The position numbers were made by a program, and so were the translations under genes. From the NCBI RefSeq assembly GCF_009856605.1, contig NZ_CP047242.1:1300001-1364000 (forward strand): a DNA stretch of 64,000 nt, read 5' to 3'. Shown here one piece after another: positions 32,728 to 42,409 of the stretch; within the stretch, counting starts at the first letter, position 1, and each line of letters begins with the position of its first letter. Under the pieces are notes generated by a model. That model did not search any database. It worked only from the letters and a program-made list of their open reading frames with translations, and was not told the origin of the DNA. The stretch is from Trichormus variabilis 0441 (lineage in GTDB: Bacteria > Cyanobacteriota > Cyanobacteriia > Cyanobacteriales > Nostocaceae).

Positions 32728-32873
32728 AGTGTTTGACCTCTCCCCAAACCCCTCTCCGACGCGGAGAGGGGCTTAAATATCCTGAAAACTCAACGAAAAT
32801 TAGGGTTTTGAAGCCTCTCTCCTTGCAGGGGAGAGGTTTGGAGAGGGGTTTTTTAAATTCGTCGAACTCACGT
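32728..32873. repeat. partial copy of the 15522-15760 element family
   Basis: CCCAAACCCCTCTCCGACGC pairs roughly with GGAGAGGTTTGGAGAGGGGT, and the right end GTCGAACTCACGT at 32861-32873 is the same 13-bp terminus as in the complete element. The left ACGTGAGTTCGAC end is missing. The right end runs directly into the stop of the large caspase gene. Confidence 0.55.
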
Positions 32874-35800
32874 TAACTAGGACAGAGTTTTTGTTCGTTG
32901 GTCGTAACATGGGGATTGGTGTTGAGGTAATCCTGTAGCCAGTTGCAAGCAGACATGACTAAAGTATTTATCTGGGAAGTTTGGGCTTGCTGGCTATCAA
33001 AACGCCAAATTTTGGTGGTAGTGTCTAAACTGCCGGAGATGAGAGTTTTACCATCTGGGCTAAAAATTGCACTCATGACTCCGGCTTGATGCTGGGGTAG
33101 GGTGGTTAACAGGTGACCGTCGAGTTGCCAAATTTTGACTGTTTTATCTTCGCTGGCTGATGCAATGTAACGACCATCGGGAGAGAAGCTGCTACTATAA
33201 ACTACATCACTATGGCCTGAGAAAGTATGTAGTAAATGACCGTCTTGACTCCTCCAGAGTTTGACGGTTTTGTCGGCGCTGGTTGAAGCAAGCATACTAC
33301 CGTCAGGACTGAAGTTGACGCTGTATACTAAGTCATTATGGGCTGGAAGACTTTTAATTAAGTTGCCGCTAACACTGTCCCAGAGTCGGATAGTTTTGTC
33401 CGCACTAGCAGAGGCGATGATTTTACCATCGGGGCTAAAACTAACCCAAAATACTTCCTCTGTATGACCTTTGAGGATTTGTTTTAACTTACCATCGCTC
33501 ACATTCCAAAGTTTAATTGTGTTGTCTCGGCTGGCGGAAGCGATCGCTTTACCATCTGGGCTAAAATTTACTTTGTTGACTTCGTTATCATGTCCTATGA
33601 GTGTTTTTAAAAGCTGACCATCTCTAACACGCCAAATCTTCACAGTTTTATCGGCGTTGGCGCTAGCGATTAAATCACCTTGGGGTGTAAAACTAATACC
33701 ATAAATTGCTTTGTTCCCTGGTAGGGTTTTTAGTAAACTACCGTCTTGACTGTGCCAAAGCTGAATCTTGCCATCTGCACCTGCTGTAGCAATGATACTA
33801 CCGTCAGGGCTGAAACTGAGCGCATACACGCCGCTATTGCCGGCAAGAACTTCTAAGGGAGATATTAAGGGACGCTGCCAAAGTCTGATGGTGTTGTCTA
33901 AACTAGCGGAAGCGAGAGTTTTACCATCAGGCAGGAAATTTACAGCATACACACCACCGCTATGACCTGTAAAGGTTTCTAGTTCGATGCCGTGACGGTT
34001 CCACAGTTTGATAGTGTTATCTCTACTCGCAGAGGCGATCGCTTTACCATCTTGGCTAAAGTTAACATCCCAGACTGAATCATTGTGACCTTTTAGGGTT
34101 TTGACCAATTTACCATCAGCGATGCGCCACAGTTTGATGGTTTTGTCAGCACTAGCGGAAGCGAGAGTTTTACCATCAGGGCTAAAACTCAGGCTATTTA
34201 CCCAATCTTGATGTCCATTGAGGGTTTTTAATAATTTCCCATCTTGGCGATGCCACAGTTTAACGGTTTTATCTTCGCTAGCGGAAGCGATGGTCTGACC
34301 ATCAGGACTGAAACGCACACTGATAACTCCAGCGCTATGACCATTGAGAGTCATCAAGAGTTGACCAGATGTACTATCCCACAACTTGATGCTGTGATCA
34401 CTACTGGCAGAGGCGAGAGTTTTACCATCGGGACTAAAATTAACATTATTGACTGTTTGCTCATGACCAGTGATGGTTTTGAGTAGGGTTCCATCACTGG
34501 TTTGCCAAAGTTTAATGGTTTTGTCACTCCCCCCGGAAGCAATGGTTTGACCGTCGGGAGAGAAACTTACACTATAAACAGCGTCTTCATGTCCGTTGAG
34601 AGTTCTAAATAACCGACCGTCTCGACTCCAAAGTTTAATAGTCTTATCTAAGCCACCAGAGGCGATAGTTTGACCATCTCCACTGATGCTAATACTAATC
34701 ACGCCGTCCTTATGTCCTTCTAGCCTGTTCCGTTCCTGCATCCCCAACAGGGCTTGTTGTAAGGTAGTGACAGTTGCTAATTTGAGATTATTGGGAACTG
34801 CTATGACATTATTTACCTGTTGTGCAGCTTTGAGACTGGCGATAAGTGCTGCTAATTGTTGATGAGATAACAGATTTGCCTGGGATGAAGAATTTAACGC
34901 TGCAATTTCCCTAAATTGGGCTTCCCTACCTTGCCAATAAGCTAAACCCCCAAAACTGACAGATGCAATACCTAAAACACTCAAGGCGACTACAGCCCTT
35001 TGTGCTTGTTTGAGGCGATTTTTTGCTTGTAATTGTTGATGCTTGCGTTCTGCTAAACAAGCGCCGATAAATTCTTGCACATCCGCCCCTAGTTCATCAG
35101 TCCAGTGAATATAAATGTCTTCGGCTTCTGCTAACCTAGCACCTTGTAATAAAAAGTCTGCTTGTTTGCCGCTTTGTTGCCACAACTGACAAGCATGATT
35201 AATTTGTCTTTGTTTACGCAAGCGATCGCGGTTTTCTTCTAACCACCAGCGCAAAGTTGACCAATGGCGTATTAAAATTTCGTGGGCGACCTCTACTGTA
35301 ACAAAGGGAGTAGGGGAAGCAGGGGAGGCTGGGGAAGCAGGGGAGGAACTTTTACCTTGTGCTTCTATGTCTGTTTCTAAGTTAATTACTACTAATTTGG
35401 CAGTAGTCAAAGCATTGAGGGTTTGTTCTACTAACCCAACCGGATATTTTTTAACTATTAAATCTGACTTATATATGCGTCTTCTGGTATCTTCTGTACC
35501 TTCCCCTAACTGAGTTAATGAAAGAAAAATCCACTTGGCACATTCTTGTAATTGTGGTGGTAAACTTTCATAAACCCCTTGACACGATCGCTCTAATGCG
35601 CCTTTAATTCCCCCTAGTTGTTCTTGATAGCTTTGTAGAGTTAATTTACCAGCCGTTCGTTGTTGCCATAACTGTTCTAAAACAAATTCCAGTAAAGGTA
35701 AATCCCCCACGGATTGATTTAACTCCCGTAACAGCACTTCCACCAGTTCCCCTTCCACCTGCAACCCTACCTGCTGTGCTGGGTTGAGAATCACCCGCCG

Positions 35801-37933
35801 ATAATCATCCAAACTCAGTTTTGGGGGAACTAACACACTAGCTACCTGTAGTGCTTCAGCTAAAGCTGGTACTTCCAAACAAGGAGCAATAAAATCAGCC
35901 CTTAAAGTAATAATTAATTTAAAGCGATCGCCTGCATACTGTACAGCCCCCAATAACAATTCTAGAAATAACTCCCTATCTGGTGATGGTGCAAGGGTAA
36001 ATAATTCCTCAAACTGGTCTATTACCAACACCGTCACCCTATGGGGAAGGCTACGCAGCCAGTAAACAAAACTTTCCACTCCTTGATGTAAAATTCCCTC
36101 AATCACAAGATGGGTTTCTCTCCATTCCCCCAACTTCCTGGCTAAAGCCTCCACAGGATTGACACCAGGACGGATAGTTTTAATCCCCCACTGTTCACTA
36201 TTGGGGATGTGTTTCCCCTGTCGCAGTTGGGGAATGAGTCCAGCTTGCACTACGGAAGACTTCCCACTACCCGAAGCACCGATGACAGCGAGAAATGAGT
36301 TATCCCGCAGATGATGAATTAACTGCTGGGTGACAGTTTCTCTCCCATAAAAATAGGCTGCGTCTGCTTCCGCAAAAGCATTTAAACCCATGTAAGGACA
36401 CACCCCTAAATCCAACCCGCTTGTCTGTTGGCTTTTGTGTGTGTTGTTAGTCAAAATTTCGATAATTCCCTGTGTCCCTGATAGCCAAACATAGAGAGGG
36501 GTTTTACTATCCGCTAAAGATAATTGTAATTGAGCGATCGCCCCAGCCGCAGACAAACCATTTCCTTGAGCAGATATCATCAAGGTATCGAGGAATTTTT
36601 GGGCAAAGTTTTCTGGTGCTTCTGGAGGTGAGGCGCAAGCAATTAAACATTGTCCGTGATGAGATTCAATTTGTAAATCTTCTATCCAATCCCCTAACGA
36701 TGCAGTCCCTAACGGACAATCCAAGATAATTACCTGTTGGCTAGTGCATTGGCGTAACTGTTGTTTTAACCAGGAACGTTTGATGCAGATATCTTCTCCC
36801 AGTCGTAGCCATTCCCCAGCTTCGCTTTCCTCAATGCGTCCCCGCAGATATAACAGAGTTAATTCTGCTTGGGGTTGTTGCCAATGACGAGCGATCGCTG
36901 CTTTAATATCCTCAGCCGATGTTTTAGTAGCTGGCAAATACTCAACCGCAAAATCTCCAGTACTACCCAGAAGTTTACTAATATCTAATGTAATTTTACT
37001 ATTTGATAACCCCTCCACCACCATCCCCAAACCATGATGCACCCCAGAGGCAATTTTCTTTAATCTTTTCCCTAAAATTAATTCCCCCACTCCTTCCACA
37101 ATTCTTTTAGGAGTTTGCAGGGGATATTCGTTATAAAGTTGCGTATCACCTTTACCCCGTTTCTGCTGATTAATTAGCCGTAATTGTTGATTAGTTTTAT
37201 CAATATATTGCAAGGTTTGGTGATATACATAACGATATAAACCATCCAAATAAATCAAGCCTTGACTATCTACCGCCTCACCTTGCAAACCCCGCATCAA
37301 ATAATATGTAAATACCCCATGCCCCAATTCGGGAAATTCCCAAGATTGCTGATTATTATCACAAGAAAGTAAAGCATAAAACCCCTTACTCTTAGCGGCA
37401 CTTTGTTGTAGTAGCTCCACTAGTTGCAGTGTTACTCCCCTAAGAGACATCCCCCCACTATGACAAGCATCTAACCACACTAGCTGATTCTGTACCCCAC
37501 TGTTACCCAAAAGTTGCAATATTTCTTGTAAAGCTAAACCTGTATTTTGCAAGTTTGATTTTTGCGTATCTGCTAAACACAAAAATACTTCTTGTGTCTT
37601 GGGATCTACCACCCCATGACCAGAAAAATAAAATAAAATCGTATCAATAGGGGATACAGTAGACGTTATATCTTGTAGTCTATGACGGACATTTGCTAAA
37701 GATGGTGATTGTGGTGCAAAATCGTGGTAAATGTTGACAATCTTTTGGGTAAATTGGGAGGCCGCCTCAGTTAAAGCCTCAGATAAACCCTGACAATCTA
37801 TTGCTGAGTAATTCAGGTTGGGTAGGTGTTCGTCCTGGTATTGATTTACTCCCACCAGAATTAACCACAACTTAGGGATGTTGGTTTGTTTGGTATGAGT
37901 TGTACGGCTGGTTGAAAGACCAATTGGTGGCAT
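32873..37933 (-). CDS. giant caspase-like peptidase / P-loop NTPase / 14-WD40 protein
   Basis: A 1686-residue protein. Domains in order: a caspase-like peptidase C14 domain (about 20-270, catalytic His106 in YFSGHGV and Cys157 in LDACHSGG); a linker; an nSTAND-type P-loop NTPase with [16 protein letters not shown] near 550 and Walker B-like [12 protein letters not shown]; a helical region with a membrane-like segment near 1000 ([20 protein letters not shown]); then 14 WD40 repeats (about 1085-1655), enough for two seven-bladed propellers. By analogy with STAND proteins, ligand sensing by the propellers would trigger oligomerisation and peptidase activity. The trigger and target are unknown. 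It stands alone. Confidence 0.93.
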
Positions 37934-38568
37934 TTTTTACACAACAGTAGCTAAAGATGAGTAAGGGTGTGAGGGTGTGAGGGTTTTAAACTTAAACATT
38001 TATACCCCTATACTTTTATATCCCCATATCCCTATACCCTTGATTTTCCGTTTTCATTGACTAAATATGTTTGACATCCTTTTTTTATGTAGTGTTATGC
38101 AAATGTTGTTCCTAAATGCAATGCGATCGCCATTCAATTAATCAATATTCAACATTTATAAATAGAAATCAACAATCCTAAAATCTATCCCTTATGGCTT
38201 ATTCCTTAAGAAATAGACTTTAGATATAGTCAAGAATACTACGGTAAACCCTCTAATTTATTCTCTGCTGAAAGTGATATAAAAATGTCAAAACGTAACG
38301 TTATGTAGCGCGTTGTTTTTTTTTGAAAAAAATAACTTATATTACTAGATAGTCAAGCAATTATCATAGTTAAGACTCTTCATTAAAGAAGGGAACAAAA
38401 GACCCCTGCAACTAGGTATTAACAGTTTCAGATGCGGTCTAAACACCCTTTTGTCTTATTTGCTGCTGTTCCCTGTTGACTTTTGGCTGTTCCCTGTTCC
38501 CTCTCTAAATAGTCGTTAATTTAATGTAATTGCTTGGTATTAACCACTGCATTAAAGACTTTTTGATC
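37934..38568. other. 635-bp AT-rich gap, no gene seen
   Basis: Directly left is a GTGTGAGGGTGTGAGGGTTT direct repeat and then several 'TATACCCCTATACTTTTATA'-like short repeats. The middle is plain AT-rich DNA. Before the next gene is 'CTGTTCCCTGTTGACTTTTG', repeated in part (TGTTCCCTGTTCCCT). No RNA or regulatory site is recognised. Confidence 0.45.
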
Positions 38569-39303
38569 ATGTTTACAACTAATAAATTAAGCAAAACCTT
38601 TGCTTGTGCATCGGTAACACTTGGTGTTGCGATTGGTGCAAGTATGGCTGCTTCTCCCGCTCAGGCTGGAACTCTTAACTGGAATGATGGAACTAGCAAC
38701 TTTTTTGAACAGGTAAGTCCTGCTATTGGGGATACTTTTTCCGTCACTTTCTCTCCTGCATCACTTGGAGGATTTGCGTCTATTTTTCAAGCCAATGGTG
38801 AGTTTGCATCAGCTTTCTCCGCAATTCCTCCCAACCCTCCTGTATTTCGCTCAATCCTGCCACCAGACTCTGCTGTGGGAAACTTTTTGTATACGGGTAC
38901 TAGTGATGCGAAGTTTATCTACAAACTTACGAATGATTTAGTGTTTCAGTTCGATGCCGACAATGATAACGTTTTTAATCCGCTTCAAGATGTGAGCGTG
39001 AAATATGCAAAAGACTCTAAATTTCTAGGTACTTTTGCTGGTGGAGGTGTGGCATTTGAGTTAGACTCCAAGACTGCGGCTTCAGTGATTACCATTCAGG
39101 GAGTCAATTACGATCCATCTCGACTTCAACTAGGTTTTCAGGATCTTCCAGGAGGACAAGGAGGGGGATATAGCGGTGTAGCTCAAGTTTCTACTCCCGA
39201 ATCTGGTTCTATTTTGGGGTTTATCGCCCTTGCTGGCTTAGGACTTGTATCTAAGGTCAGAAAAGAAAAAACACAGTCACTGGCGTGTGCAAGACACCAG
39301 TAA
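38569..39303 (+). CDS. exported protein with PEP-CTERM-like C-terminal anchor
   Basis: A 244-residue protein from the ATG at 38569; a TTG 39 bases upstream only adds residues before the signal peptide. The signal peptide (about 10-32) ends SPAQA. A beta-rich domain follows (GTLNWNDGTSNFF, FKYKLTNDLVFQFD-like strands and DADNDNVFNPLQD). The C-terminus shows TPESGSILGFIALAGLGL followed by KVRKEK, i.e. Pro-Glu, hydrophobic helix and basic end. This is the cyanobacterial variant of the PEP-CTERM sorting signal, for processing at the cell surface. The function of the body is unknown. Confidence 0.75.
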   Translation: MFTTNKLSKTFACASVTLGVAIGASMAASPAQAGTLNWNDGTSNFFEQVSPAIGDTFSVTFSPASLGGFASIFQANGEFASAFSAIPPNPPVFRSILPPDSAVGNFLYTGTSDAKFIYKLTNDLVFQFDADNDNVFNPLQDVSVKYAKDSKFLGTFAGGGVAFELDSKTAASVITIQGVNYDPSRLQLGFQDLPGGQGGGYSGVAQVSTPESGSILGFIALAGLGLVSKVRKEKTQSLACARHQ

Positions 39304-39560: not shown

Positions 39561-40559
39561 TCAACTTCTCATTAGAATAAGTTTGTGTGGCAAATCATTC
39601 CAAGACAGTGAATCTTGGACAATTTCTTGACGAAAATCTAACCAACCTTGCTCATTGCATAAAGCCAACAAATCATTAATTATTGTGTACCAAAGCAGAG
39701 GTGTATCAGCACGTCCTTGAGCAATAAACTGAGCAGCTTGTGTGAGAAAAGTGGTGATATCTTGCTCCACAAATGCTTGTTTGATGGAAAACCAAGCATA
39801 GGAACGTGGGTAGCGAGATTTTTCAGTGTGAACTGGTAACTGTAAATAATCTGCCGCAATTGTTAACAAATTAGCTACTTGCTTGCGGTCTTGACCTGCC
39901 AAAATTAAAGCAACTTCACCAGTAATTTGGGCAAACATAACAGAGACAAACTCAGGAGGTTGGCGTGCTATGCGTTCAAAACCCCAAGGATGGGGAGTAG
40001 GTAAAGTCTGCAATTGTCCATCAAGATAGGCAAGAAGTTGAGCAGCAAGTGCGATCGCTCCTGTAAAATTTAATCGTCGTGCTTCTGTCCGCACTAGATT
40101 GTGTAACAGTTGGATACGCTGCATCAGGAGAATATCATAACCATATTCTTCCTCTAAAATTGCACTTAATCTTAAAGCCTCCTCAGTGCGACTGTAAACT
40201 TGGTCAAAATTCTGATGACAATAATCGAGATAAGCTGCTGATTGTTCTAAAAATGACTGATGTAGTAGCTTAGATTCCCGTGACAGTGTAGCCATTTGCA
40301 AAGGTTTACGGGCTTCCTCAAATAACTGCGCGGCTGTTGTCAGTTGGCGGTGGCGAGCAGCTACCATCCCTTGACTACGAGCATTACTATAGCGACGCAG
40401 TAATAATTGCTCTTGTAAGGGTAAACGTTGCGCCATCAAAGCTTCTAGTTTTTCGCTAAATAAATCACCACTACCTGCGGGTATATTCATAGTTGCAGTA
40501 CACCCTTGGCGATAACTTTCTGTGATTTCTGCTAGGAGTTGACTAGAAGTATTAAGCAT
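39561..40559 (-). CDS. helical-repeat partner protein of a radical SAM maturase
   Basis: A 332-residue protein, almost entirely helical, with TPR-like helix pairs: EKLEALMAQRLPLQEQLLL, RHRQLTTAAQLFEEA, LLHQSFLEQSAAYLDYC, NFTGAIALAAQLLAYLD. No signal peptide, membrane helix or catalytic motif is seen. Its ATG lies inside the last codons of the radical SAM gene (8-base overlap), so the two are translationally coupled and should work together. A role as adaptor or scaffold recognising the precursor or enzyme is inference. I do not recognise the family. Confidence 0.75.
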   Translation of the reverse strand: MLNTSSQLLAEITESYRQGCTATMNIPAGSGDLFSEKLEALMAQRLPLQEQLLLRRYSNARSQGMVAARHRQLTTAAQLFEEARKPLQMATLSRESKLLHQSFLEQSAAYLDYCHQNFDQVYSRTEEALRLSAILEEEYGYDILLMQRIQLLHNLVRTEARRLNFTGAIALAAQLLAYLDGQLQTLPTPHPWGFERIARQPPEFVSVMFAQITGEVALILAGQDRKQVANLLTIAADYLQLPVHTEKSRYPRSYAWFSIKQAFVEQDITTFLTQAAQFIAQGRADTPLLWYTIINDLLALCNEQGWLDFRQEIVQDSLSWNDLPHKLILMRS

Positions 40560-41910
40560 AAACTAAAGCCTCCTCGTTGGTTTCTGCTTCTTCAATCCGA
40601 GATAACGCATAGGTAAGTAATAAACGTTGCTCAATGTTATGTTTAGCACTGGGGCATGGTTCAATACCTTCTAACCAACTCTTCGGACAGGAACCACCGC
40701 AAACAGGTAGCATGGGGCAAGTAGAACAGGGATATGCACCTTGACGCACTTTATCATTGAAACTAGCTAAACGTTCCCTTTTACCGGGCATCTGTTTACC
40801 TGATAAATGATCAATGGCATATTCATTAGGTGTGCCGTATGTAGGAACATAAGACACCTCTGTACAATTAAAAATATTGCCATAGGCATCAACTAATTCC
40901 GAATGGGGCATTACAGCCATACAAACTAGAGGTCTGCGCTCTGGTAGTAGCCCAACCTTGAAACCTAACTCAATCATTTCCCCAAGCCAAGTTATTTCCC
41001 AATCAGCAAATTCTTCTTTCGATAAGGAACGAGTATGAGCATCATTTCCCCAAGAATGAATCGGTGCAACATAGAAATTAATCTTATCTTGTATCTCTGC
41101 CTCAGCTAATTTTTGTAGTAACAAAGAGACAGATTCATAATTTTGATAATCAACATTACAACGAATATTAATTTGTACATCCAAATCTTGCCGATGAGCT
41201 AAGGCAACCGTATTAGCAAAAATTTTCTCAAATGTAGGTAAGCCATTTTTCTGCATCCGCCGAACATCATGATATTCACCAGTGCCATCAAGAGTAATTT
41301 CAACAGAATTTACGCCTAATTCTTGAACAATTTCCGTTGCTACTTGATGTGTTAAAGCTAAACCATTGGTGACAACTTTTGCATGATAACTACAACCAAA
41401 ACTGGCCGCAAGAGCCTGTAGTTTTGGCGTAAGAGTTCTCATCACTGGCAGACCTACCAAAGGTTCTGCACCAAACCAACCAATTGAGAGACTACGAAAG
41501 TTCTTGCTGGCGAGTTTTTTAGCAGTTCGTTCTATAAATTTTTGTTGCTCATCTTCGGTCATCATTTTGCTAGTATGTTCCTGACCACAGTAATGACAAC
41601 CCAGTTGACAAAAAGCAGTTGGTTGAACAACTAAATGTAGATCATCGTTATCAATTGCTAAGGCATTATTGTAATCTAAAATAGTTTGTAATTCGTTTTC
41701 ATCATCAGGTACAATTAGTTCAACATCAACTAGATCAAACAATATATATTGAGGTAATTGAGCAAAATCACCACTAGCTAAAATGTGCCAACTATGCTCA
41801 TCAATAATTCTGACATTTGATGTTCGACTAGAAAAGATAACGCGCTTTGTTCGTTCTTCAATTTCATCGAAAAATGGTTGTGTTACTACATGATAATGTG
41901 AAAGCTTCAT
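40552..41910 (-). CDS. radical SAM/SPASM domain protein (peptide maturase type)
   Basis: A 452-residue enzyme. An N-terminal region (about 1-90) may be a small peptide-binding domain. The radical SAM cluster motif is CQLGCHYC (Cx3Cx2C, near residue 104), followed by GWFGAEPLVGLP, VTNGLAL and VEITLDGTGEYHDVRR. The C-terminal SPASM part has NCTEVSYVPTYG and CPMLPVCGGSCPKSW plus a later PCPSAKHN Cys, for auxiliary Fe-S clusters. SPASM enzymes modify ribosomally made peptides through radical chemistry. The gene lies between a small exported protein and a coupled helical partner, a typical RiPP-like cassette. Confidence 0.9.
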   Translation of the reverse strand: MKLSHYHVVTQPFFDEIEERTKRVIFSSRTSNVRIIDEHSWHILASGDFAQLPQYILFDLVDVELIVPDDENELQTILDYNNALAIDNDDLHLVVQPTAFCQLGCHYCGQEHTSKMMTEDEQQKFIERTAKKLASKNFRSLSIGWFGAEPLVGLPVMRTLTPKLQALAASFGCSYHAKVVTNGLALTHQVATEIVQELGVNSVEITLDGTGEYHDVRRMQKNGLPTFEKIFANTVALAHRQDLDVQINIRCNVDYQNYESVSLLLQKLAEAEIQDKINFYVAPIHSWGNDAHTRSLSKEEFADWEITWLGEMIELGFKVGLLPERRPLVCMAVMPHSELVDAYGNIFNCTEVSYVPTYGTPNEYAIDHLSGKQMPGKRERLASFNDKVRQGAYPCSTCPMLPVCGGSCPKSWLEGIEPCPSAKHNIEQRLLLTYALSRIEEAETNEEALVYA

Positions 41911-42067
41911 ATTTATAACGTCCCTACAAAATAGACAGGAAATACTTGTGAAGTAAGTTGCTAGTTATCAATTGAAGGATTGGTAATAGATAATAATTCC
42001 GACTCAATTACGAGTTACCAATTACCAAATCCAGAAACCATATCTACATAACTAGCAACTCGATAAA

Positions 42068-42409
42068 TTACTTACGGATTTGATCCTTAAAAGTAGCTGG
42101 ACTAATAACTCTGCGTCCGTTATCAGGTAGGCGTTCAGAGCAACCTGCGTTAACACAACCTGCATTATGTGCGTTTGCTCCACCCGGTTTTATAGTCCCT
42201 GGAAGTTTCTGTACAGAAGGAGTTATATTATCAACTGCCCCTGGACGCACTTTGATAGAATCAGTACTTAAATTAGCGCGGTTCAGGAAATTATCAACAG
42301 CACCAGGTTGGGGAGTTTGAGCATTAACTGCTGGGTTTAAAGCTGCAATGCTTGTCATTGCAATCATGCTGAAAATGAACTTGATTTTGCTGGATTTTTG
42401 AGTAGACAT
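42068..42409 (-). CDS. candidate exported substrate peptide of the radical SAM enzyme
   Basis: A 113-residue protein. The signal peptide (about 10-30, cleavage near VNAQ) precedes two PGAVDN motifs (PQPGAVDNFLNRANL and RPGAVDNITPSV). A Gly/Asn/Cys segment NAHNAGCVNAGCSERLPDNG and a basic end follow. The two Cys in NAGC repeats and the Asn/Asp-rich motifs are plausible sites for radical modification or crosslinking. It is the first gene, 157 bases upstream of and co-directional with the radical SAM gene, and has the size and composition of a precursor. Substrate status is inference; it could also be an unrelated secreted protein. Confidence 0.65.
   Translation of the reverse strand: MSTQKSSKIKFIFSMIAMTSIAALNPAVNAQTPQPGAVDNFLNRANLSTDSIKVRPGAVDNITPSVQKLPGTIKPGGANAHNAGCVNAGCSERLPDNGRRVISPATFKDQIRK

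Follow-up and report, generated by a model that had tools for sequence, protein, structure and literature searches.

In cyanobacteria, the triceptide system of GrrM/OscB and GrrA combines a SPASM maturase with a secreted-looking substrate, and GrrA carries a signal peptide. Among the ribosomally synthesised and post-translationally modified peptides (RiPPs) made by radical S-adenosylmethionine (SAM) enzymes, the NxxC RaS-RiPPs are represented by NxxcA and NxxcB of Streptococcus orisratti. The bond that NxxcB forms in NxxcA runs from Cys23 to the beta-carbon of Asn20 (PMC8326336; PMC13361665). Sec signal peptides on RiPP precursors are rare, and PMC12452194 gives the bufferins, a group of MNIO RiPPs, as the only case in which Sec use was shown in the natural host. 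Here we describe a three-gene cassette of Trichormus variabilis 0441 (contig NZ_CP047242.1, positions 1,300,001 to 1,364,000). On the minus strand of this 64,000-nucleotide stretch, hereafter the window, the cassette encodes a precursor of 113 residues (42068..42409), a radical SAM/SPASM maturase of 452 residues (40552..41910) and an all-helical, tetratricopeptide repeat (TPR)-like protein of 332 residues (39561..40559). The locus is a RiPP biosynthetic gene cluster in the sense that a small precursor is adjacent to, and co-inherited with, a modifying enzyme. No description of this cassette family was found in the literature searched, most subscription journals being outside coverage.

The initial annotation had read the three genes as a peptide-modification operon. 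All of the features it listed (open reading frames, motifs, signal peptide, Cys cluster and gene overlap) are present in the sequence. The pairing of precursor and maturase was followed in a family set of 217 Nostocaceae genomes, with a precursor profile of 17 rows and a maturase profile of 4 rows, and in an order set, a sample of 291 genomes of the same order. When named genomes were scanned with two peptide patterns, 29 maturase loci were obtained, 14 of them cyanobacterial (loci and genomes carry our own labels, L and G). Strong precursor matches (E 1e-28 or better) were obtained in 9 of the 217 family genomes, and complete maturases (E 3.4e-232 or better) in the identical nine. The two genes are adjacent in all nine, the window included. 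Three order genomes (G000, G021 and G048) hold strong precursors and all three hold the maturase, so every genome with a strong precursor homologue in either set also has the enzyme. At 12 of the 14 cyanobacterial loci (L038-L049), a signal-peptide-like precursor is encoded on the strand of the maturase, some 85-190 bases upstream of it; seven of the 12 share their maturase with family-set genomes. The pairing spans Leptolyngbyaceae, Cyanothecaceae and Nostocaceae with differing neighbours. These counts support the proposed pairing and the RiPP reading. In the scan, 12 of 13 complete cyanobacterial maturases keep the precursor family; the Roseofilum locus L051 and the relatives in other phyla have other small peptides. 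At L051, a maturase 49% identical lies beside an unrelated 74-residue peptide that ends in CDTSCK and lacks a signal peptide. The order genome G141 has a maturase of 49% identity, the same as that of L051 over the last 400 residues, which is also paired with a different small peptide ending in CDTSCK. At L066, the maturase is truncated and no signal-peptide precursor frame was found.

The precursor is single-copy in its own genome, three further matches being weak (E 0.02 or worse). In G021 and G048, an additional precursor copy with one core Cys lies apart from the maturase; in G048, this copy is also frame-broken. The dN/dS values were 0.08-0.56 for the precursor in five pairs and 0.05-0.19 for the maturases. 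The locus is beyond chance because the precursor is a conserved protein by this measure and adjoins the maturase in other cyanobacteria. The 113-residue protein is very probably the substrate of the maturase. Weak precursor matches in 8 of the 17 matching family genomes (E 7e-4 to 0.01) were rejected; they were mostly RERQ-repeat signal-peptide or membrane-like frames without a Cys core. The weak order-set matches in G067 and G246 were not counted; on the match in G067 (L070) there was no frame of at least 60 residues, and none at a lower limit either. Matches at L007-L009 fell in stop-containing frames or other genes and were likewise left aside. Distant maturases of G091, G110 and G114 (28-30% identical) served as outgroup only and were not used for the pairing. 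In G420 (L098), which gave a tenth maturase match in the family set, the maturase is decaying in three open pieces without a precursor match, and an adjacent caspase-like gene is still open.

The enzyme of the window belongs among the radical SAM/SPASM peptide maturases by its cluster, its Cys pattern and its domain scores. It scored 37.8 bits with the radical SAM domain PF04055 (cut-off 29.5) and 37.4 bits with the SPASM domain TIGR04085 (cut-off 27). The Cx3Cx2C residues C101, C105 and C108 and the seven SPASM residues (C330, C349, C395, C398, C404, C408 and C419) are invariant in 28 of 28 alignment rows. Among the best 25 of 47 matching NCBIfam models, the generic SPASM domain was the sole one to reach its cut-off. 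The best model, TIGR04463 (rSAM_vs_C_rich), gave 194.9 bits, below its cut-off of 525. It was also the best model for the relatives at L050, L052, L053 and L059, with a range of 194.8-207.8 bits including the window maturase. Lower scores were obtained with CefB (NF038107, 147.7 bits, cut-off 600), the PapB family (NF047865, 73.4, cut-off 340), the nif11-like maturase model (TIGR04064, 60.6, cut-off 518.7), the SCIFF maturase model (TIGR03974, 42.2, cut-off 425) and GrrM/OscB (TIGR04261, 40.8, cut-off 310). Within those best 25 matches, the view that the enzyme stands outside the named SPASM families holds. Its predicted fold matches Protein Data Bank (PDB) entries 5why/5wgg across nearly the whole length, and the profile match to them covers residues 98-275 (E 5.2e-13). 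We take these entries to be the ranthipeptide (SCIFF) maturase CteB, a name absent from the entry titles. The fold is shared with that enzyme, whereas the cassette precursors do not have the six-Cys pattern of SCIFF. Other fold neighbours are SkfB, SuiB, TigE and the anaerobic sulfatase maturase anSME. Residues 1-62 are modelled as strands followed by helices and may form a PqqD-like RiPP recognition element (RRE); the 5why match begins at residue 4 and is not of the N-terminal domain alone. PADLOC gave weak matches of the enzyme to viperins (29.9 bits at best), which were ascribed to the shared radical SAM fold.

The precursor and the helical protein gave nothing near cut-off in NCBIfam or Pfam. 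In the precursor, a likely signal peptide was judged by eye at residues 1-30 (42320..42409), with KSSKIK, a hydrophobic stretch and the junction AVNA/QT. It is followed by the block LNRANL at residues 42-47 (42269..42286), a candidate recognition sequence suggested by the precursor alignment, by the core NAGCVNAGC at residues 82-90 (42140..42166) and by a C-terminal tail. The conserved features are the signal-peptide-like start, common to 17 aligned precursors, the LNRANL-like block, in which L42 and L47 are nearly invariant, and the [N/D]-x-x-C units. The initial annotation had emphasised PGAVDN, found at residues 35-40 and 56-61. Its conservation was not borne out: in the three closest relatives the second copy reads PGVVNN, and beyond them the first is variable (PGNVDN, PGNIDN, PGSIDK and others). 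PGAVDN was therefore rejected as a substrate motif. The NAGC motif is indeed present, but it is only one case of the wider [N/D]xxC unit. Precursors of the Myxacorys type (L047, L049, P0060, P0063 and P0064) have a tandemly repeated core, with CDGGGSxNTGGCAASP twice.

In the window precursor, the core consists of N82-A-G-C85 and N87-A-G-C90, which agrees with the N-x-x-C unit of the NxxC RiPPs. Of the 72 core Cys in 30 distinct cyanobacterial precursors, 46 are preceded by Asn or Asp at a distance of three residues (position -3); of the 51 in 19 distinct precursors from the other loci, L051 included, 48 are. When the non-Cys core residues were shuffled (5000 trials), the means were 13.9 and 10.5 and the maxima 24 and 20, respectively. 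The background in mechanically chosen window frames of at least 150 residues was 11 of 161 Cys. The published NxxcB bond joins Asn C-beta to Cys at equal spacing, and for this reason a beta-thioether is the best chemical guess. By this analogy, the predicted beta-thioether to Asn or Asp is considered fairly probable.

On balance, we favour the explanation that a radical SAM/SPASM RiPP cassette staples the core Cys residues of the 113-residue substrate to Asn or Asp and that the product is then exported by Sec. The gene pairing, the conservation, the motif statistics, the predicted fold and the lack of a C39 gene nearby are its observed basis; the binding site, the thioether chemistry, the order of events and Sec export are what we infer. 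In the cytoplasm, the RRE-like N-terminal region of the maturase would bind the precursor, probably via the LNRANL-like block after the signal peptide. Each core Cys would then be linked by the enzyme, through its sulfur, to C-beta of the Asn or Asp at -3, which would give Cys85-Asn82 and Cys90-Asn87 in the window precursor. Still unfolded, the stapled chain would leave by Sec via its own signal peptide, unlike the double-glycine (GG) leader and C39 route of Bacteroidota. As to the role of the product, a secreted signal or an antagonistic peptide would be our guess.

Several points weigh against this explanation. The genomes compared are related, so the rows of co-occurrence are not independent. 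The likeness drawn to the NxxC RaS-RiPPs is one of the Asn-x-x-Cys motif, and a homology of the maturase to NxxcB would be conjecture. The residue at -3 is not Asn or Asp for 26 of the 72 cyanobacterial core Cys; these are mostly of two recurring forms, NTGGC, where Asn is at -4, and CDGGGS, at its first Cys. Because of these exceptions, the acceptor may vary or not every Cys may be joined. A search for the motif itself yielded five of the 19 precursors from other loci (those of L061, L062 and L065 and the two of L060), which on that account favour it; if they are excluded, 38 of 41 Cys have Asn or Asp at -3. Among NCBIfam models, TIGR04463 and CefB come nearest to the maturase, the title of 5why/5wgg names sactipeptides, and a fold alone does not define the bond, so the bond type is not given by the fold match. 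Lastly, Sec export of the product is read from the sequence only.

Some of these points would suit a correct substrate and maturase with other chemistry, such as a sactionine (C-alpha thioether), another cross-link or epimerisation, in which Asn or Asp at -3 merely forms a turn that presents the Cys. Besides the 26 exceptions, the nearest NCBIfam models cover several chemistries, and SkfB, SuiB, TigE and anSME are among the fold neighbours. On the other hand, Asn or Asp is kept at -3 in 48 of 51 cases outside the cyanobacterial signal-peptide group despite wholly different leaders, and NxxC is the published beta-thioether motif. We consider such other chemistry unlikely.

The relatives in other phyla were compared with respect to leader and export route. 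A peptide with Cys units is found within 4 kb upstream at 27 of the 29 maturase loci. Eight of the 11 Bacteroidota loci (L053-L055, L059 and L062-L065) have GG-leader peptides, L052 and L061 have other small Cys peptides, and no such peptide was found upstream at L057. The precursor of a betaproteobacterial metagenome-assembled genome (L050) lacks a signal peptide. At two Caedibacter loci, a peptide with a signal-peptide-like start and the ending CYNGSCGKD or CVNGVCW is encoded about 1 kb upstream, and a planctomycete locus has two peptides, ending in NVACDSGC and NVACDSSC. Precursors in other phyla have only the Cys unit in common with the cyanobacterial ones. In the maturase tree (34 rows), the 15 cyanobacterial signal-peptide rows were grouped with support 91/94, below the starred level; Caedibacter was placed elsewhere and L051 outside this group. 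The deep order of the tree is unsure because of long branches. A C39 transporter gene lies downstream of the maturase in seven Bacteroidota loci, by a C39 domain model built from five of those seven. No C39 gene was detected in the 64-kb window nor at the cyanobacterial loci L028-L030, L038-L049, L051 and L066, with flanks of at most 10 kb (only 84 bases downstream of the maturase at L047); given these flanks, a more distant transporter is still possible. The cyanobacterial precursors appear to carry a signal-peptide-like start in place of the GG-leader and C39 route. Modification is likely to precede Sec export. The anaerobic sulfatase maturase, a fold neighbour, likewise modifies proteins that are exported later. 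The initial annotation had called a signal peptide on such a substrate unusual; rare it is, but not unique, since the bufferins have one (PMC12452194).

The helical gene overlaps the maturase gene by 8 bases (40552-40559) and had been taken as a dedicated partner. Of the 29 maturase loci, 13 have the gene nearby: all 8 GG-leader loci, L051, L060, L061 and two of the 12 signal-peptide loci of cyanobacteria. When the cyanobacterial signal-peptide loci were pooled and each counted once (window, L038-L049, G404, G021 and G048; L047 not judged), it was present at 4 of 15 (window, L038, L040 and G404). In G021 and G048, both with precursor and maturase, there was no match anywhere at E<=1e-5. Seven order genomes have the helical protein without a maturase match at 1e-40. 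At these loci (L031-L037), according to Pfam, its relatives stand beside LanM-type enzymes (L031 and L034), a tryptophan-halogenase match (L033 and L037) and a C39 transporter (L036); by eye, GG-leader-like peptides and a C39-like protein are beside the relative at L032, and L035 was left without assignment. The profile of the helical protein gave weak matches to consensus TPR proteins only, and the PDB search with its model gave no match at E<=1e-3. TPR-like genes were noted in two RiPP clusters in a Bacteroidales survey (PMC10352776). With its patchy presence and its other RiPP neighbours, the protein was rejected as a specific partner. The view that suits it best is that of a general RiPP accessory, dispensable to the signal-peptide form, and it would have an auxiliary role in the mechanism. 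Alternatively, it could keep the precursor from Sec until modified, as the bufferin authors propose for signal-peptide masking by a partner (PMC12452194), and the gene overlap would fit such a gatekeeper. However, the absence from 11 of 15 judged cyanobacterial loci, including G021 and G048, and the presence at every GG-leader locus make this improbable.

An exported metal-binding or disulfide protein, with the Cys pair free and other residues altered by the maturase, was also considered. A short loop with two Cys could bind metal, and the Sec-exported bufferins chelate copper (PMC12452194). However, it is the Cys units that recur in the precursors of different phyla, whose leaders differ, and 3 to 10 residues lie between the paired Cys of cyanobacterial precursors, a variability unusual for a metal site. 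This alternative is quite improbable. That the precursor-like gene encodes an unrelated secreted protein, upstream through shared locus ancestry alone, is very improbable: further neighbours are also conserved at some Nostocales loci, but the pairing persists in three families despite different neighbours, and relatives in Bacteroidota, Planctomycetota and Pseudomonadota have small [N/D]xxC peptides encoded upstream.

The spacer between precursor and maturase (41911..42067, minus strand) contains a long hairpin (z -3.7) and is a dispersed repeat without an Rfam match. The hairpin was set aside as an attenuator because seven more matches to this stretch occur in the genome; promoter and terminator counts also equalled those of shuffles. 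It is probably not specific to the cassette. Downstream of the cassette, a caspase-like/nSTAND1/WD40 protein is encoded at 32873-37933 (minus strand). For its N-terminal part, the top homologue is separated from the maturase by about 0.2-1.1 kb in G404, G416 and G048 and by about 6.6 kb in G021; in G467 it is on a different contig. In G420, too, a homologue comes after the broken maturase, and among the 29 scanned loci the protein was seen at L040 alone. Between this gene and the cassette, 38530-39303 (plus strand) encodes an exported-looking protein, also present in L038, whose PEP-CTERM-like tail is below threshold (14.4 bits, cut-off 16). In L028, L029, L039, L040 and L042, the cassette is preceded by a divergent pair of genes, one for a sigma-70 region 4 protein and one for a DUF1822-like protein; Pfam confirms the pair in L040 and, in L028, its sigma member. 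The pair does not adjoin the cassette in the window.

Compared with the described systems, the cassette often has two to four units per precursor, uses Asp besides Asn and has a signal peptide in cyanobacteria, in which it differs from NxxcA/NxxcB. The window precursor has a Cys core and no Gly-rich repeat, in contrast to GrrA. It shares with the bufferins a Cys-containing precursor and a Sec signal peptide (PMC12452194), whereas the enzyme superfamily and the chemistry differ. We tentatively propose, at slightly less than even confidence, that one maturase family serves two export systems. The [N/D]xxC core would be largely fixed and the front of the precursor exchanged, with a GG leader and C39 in Bacteroidota and a Sec-type signal peptide in the cyanobacterial group and, separately, in Caedibacter. 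The cyanobacterial enzyme would have to read a site downstream of the signal peptide and finish the thioether before Sec export, and the product would be a secreted, radical-stapled protein of about 83 residues. The signal-peptide cassette can be compared with related GG-leader versions, in an enzyme class other than that of the bufferins. For a maturase group that reaches no specific NCBIfam cut-off, among the best 25 of 47 matches of the window maturase, a concrete chemical prediction of Asn/Asp-Cys thioethers in four phyla can be offered.
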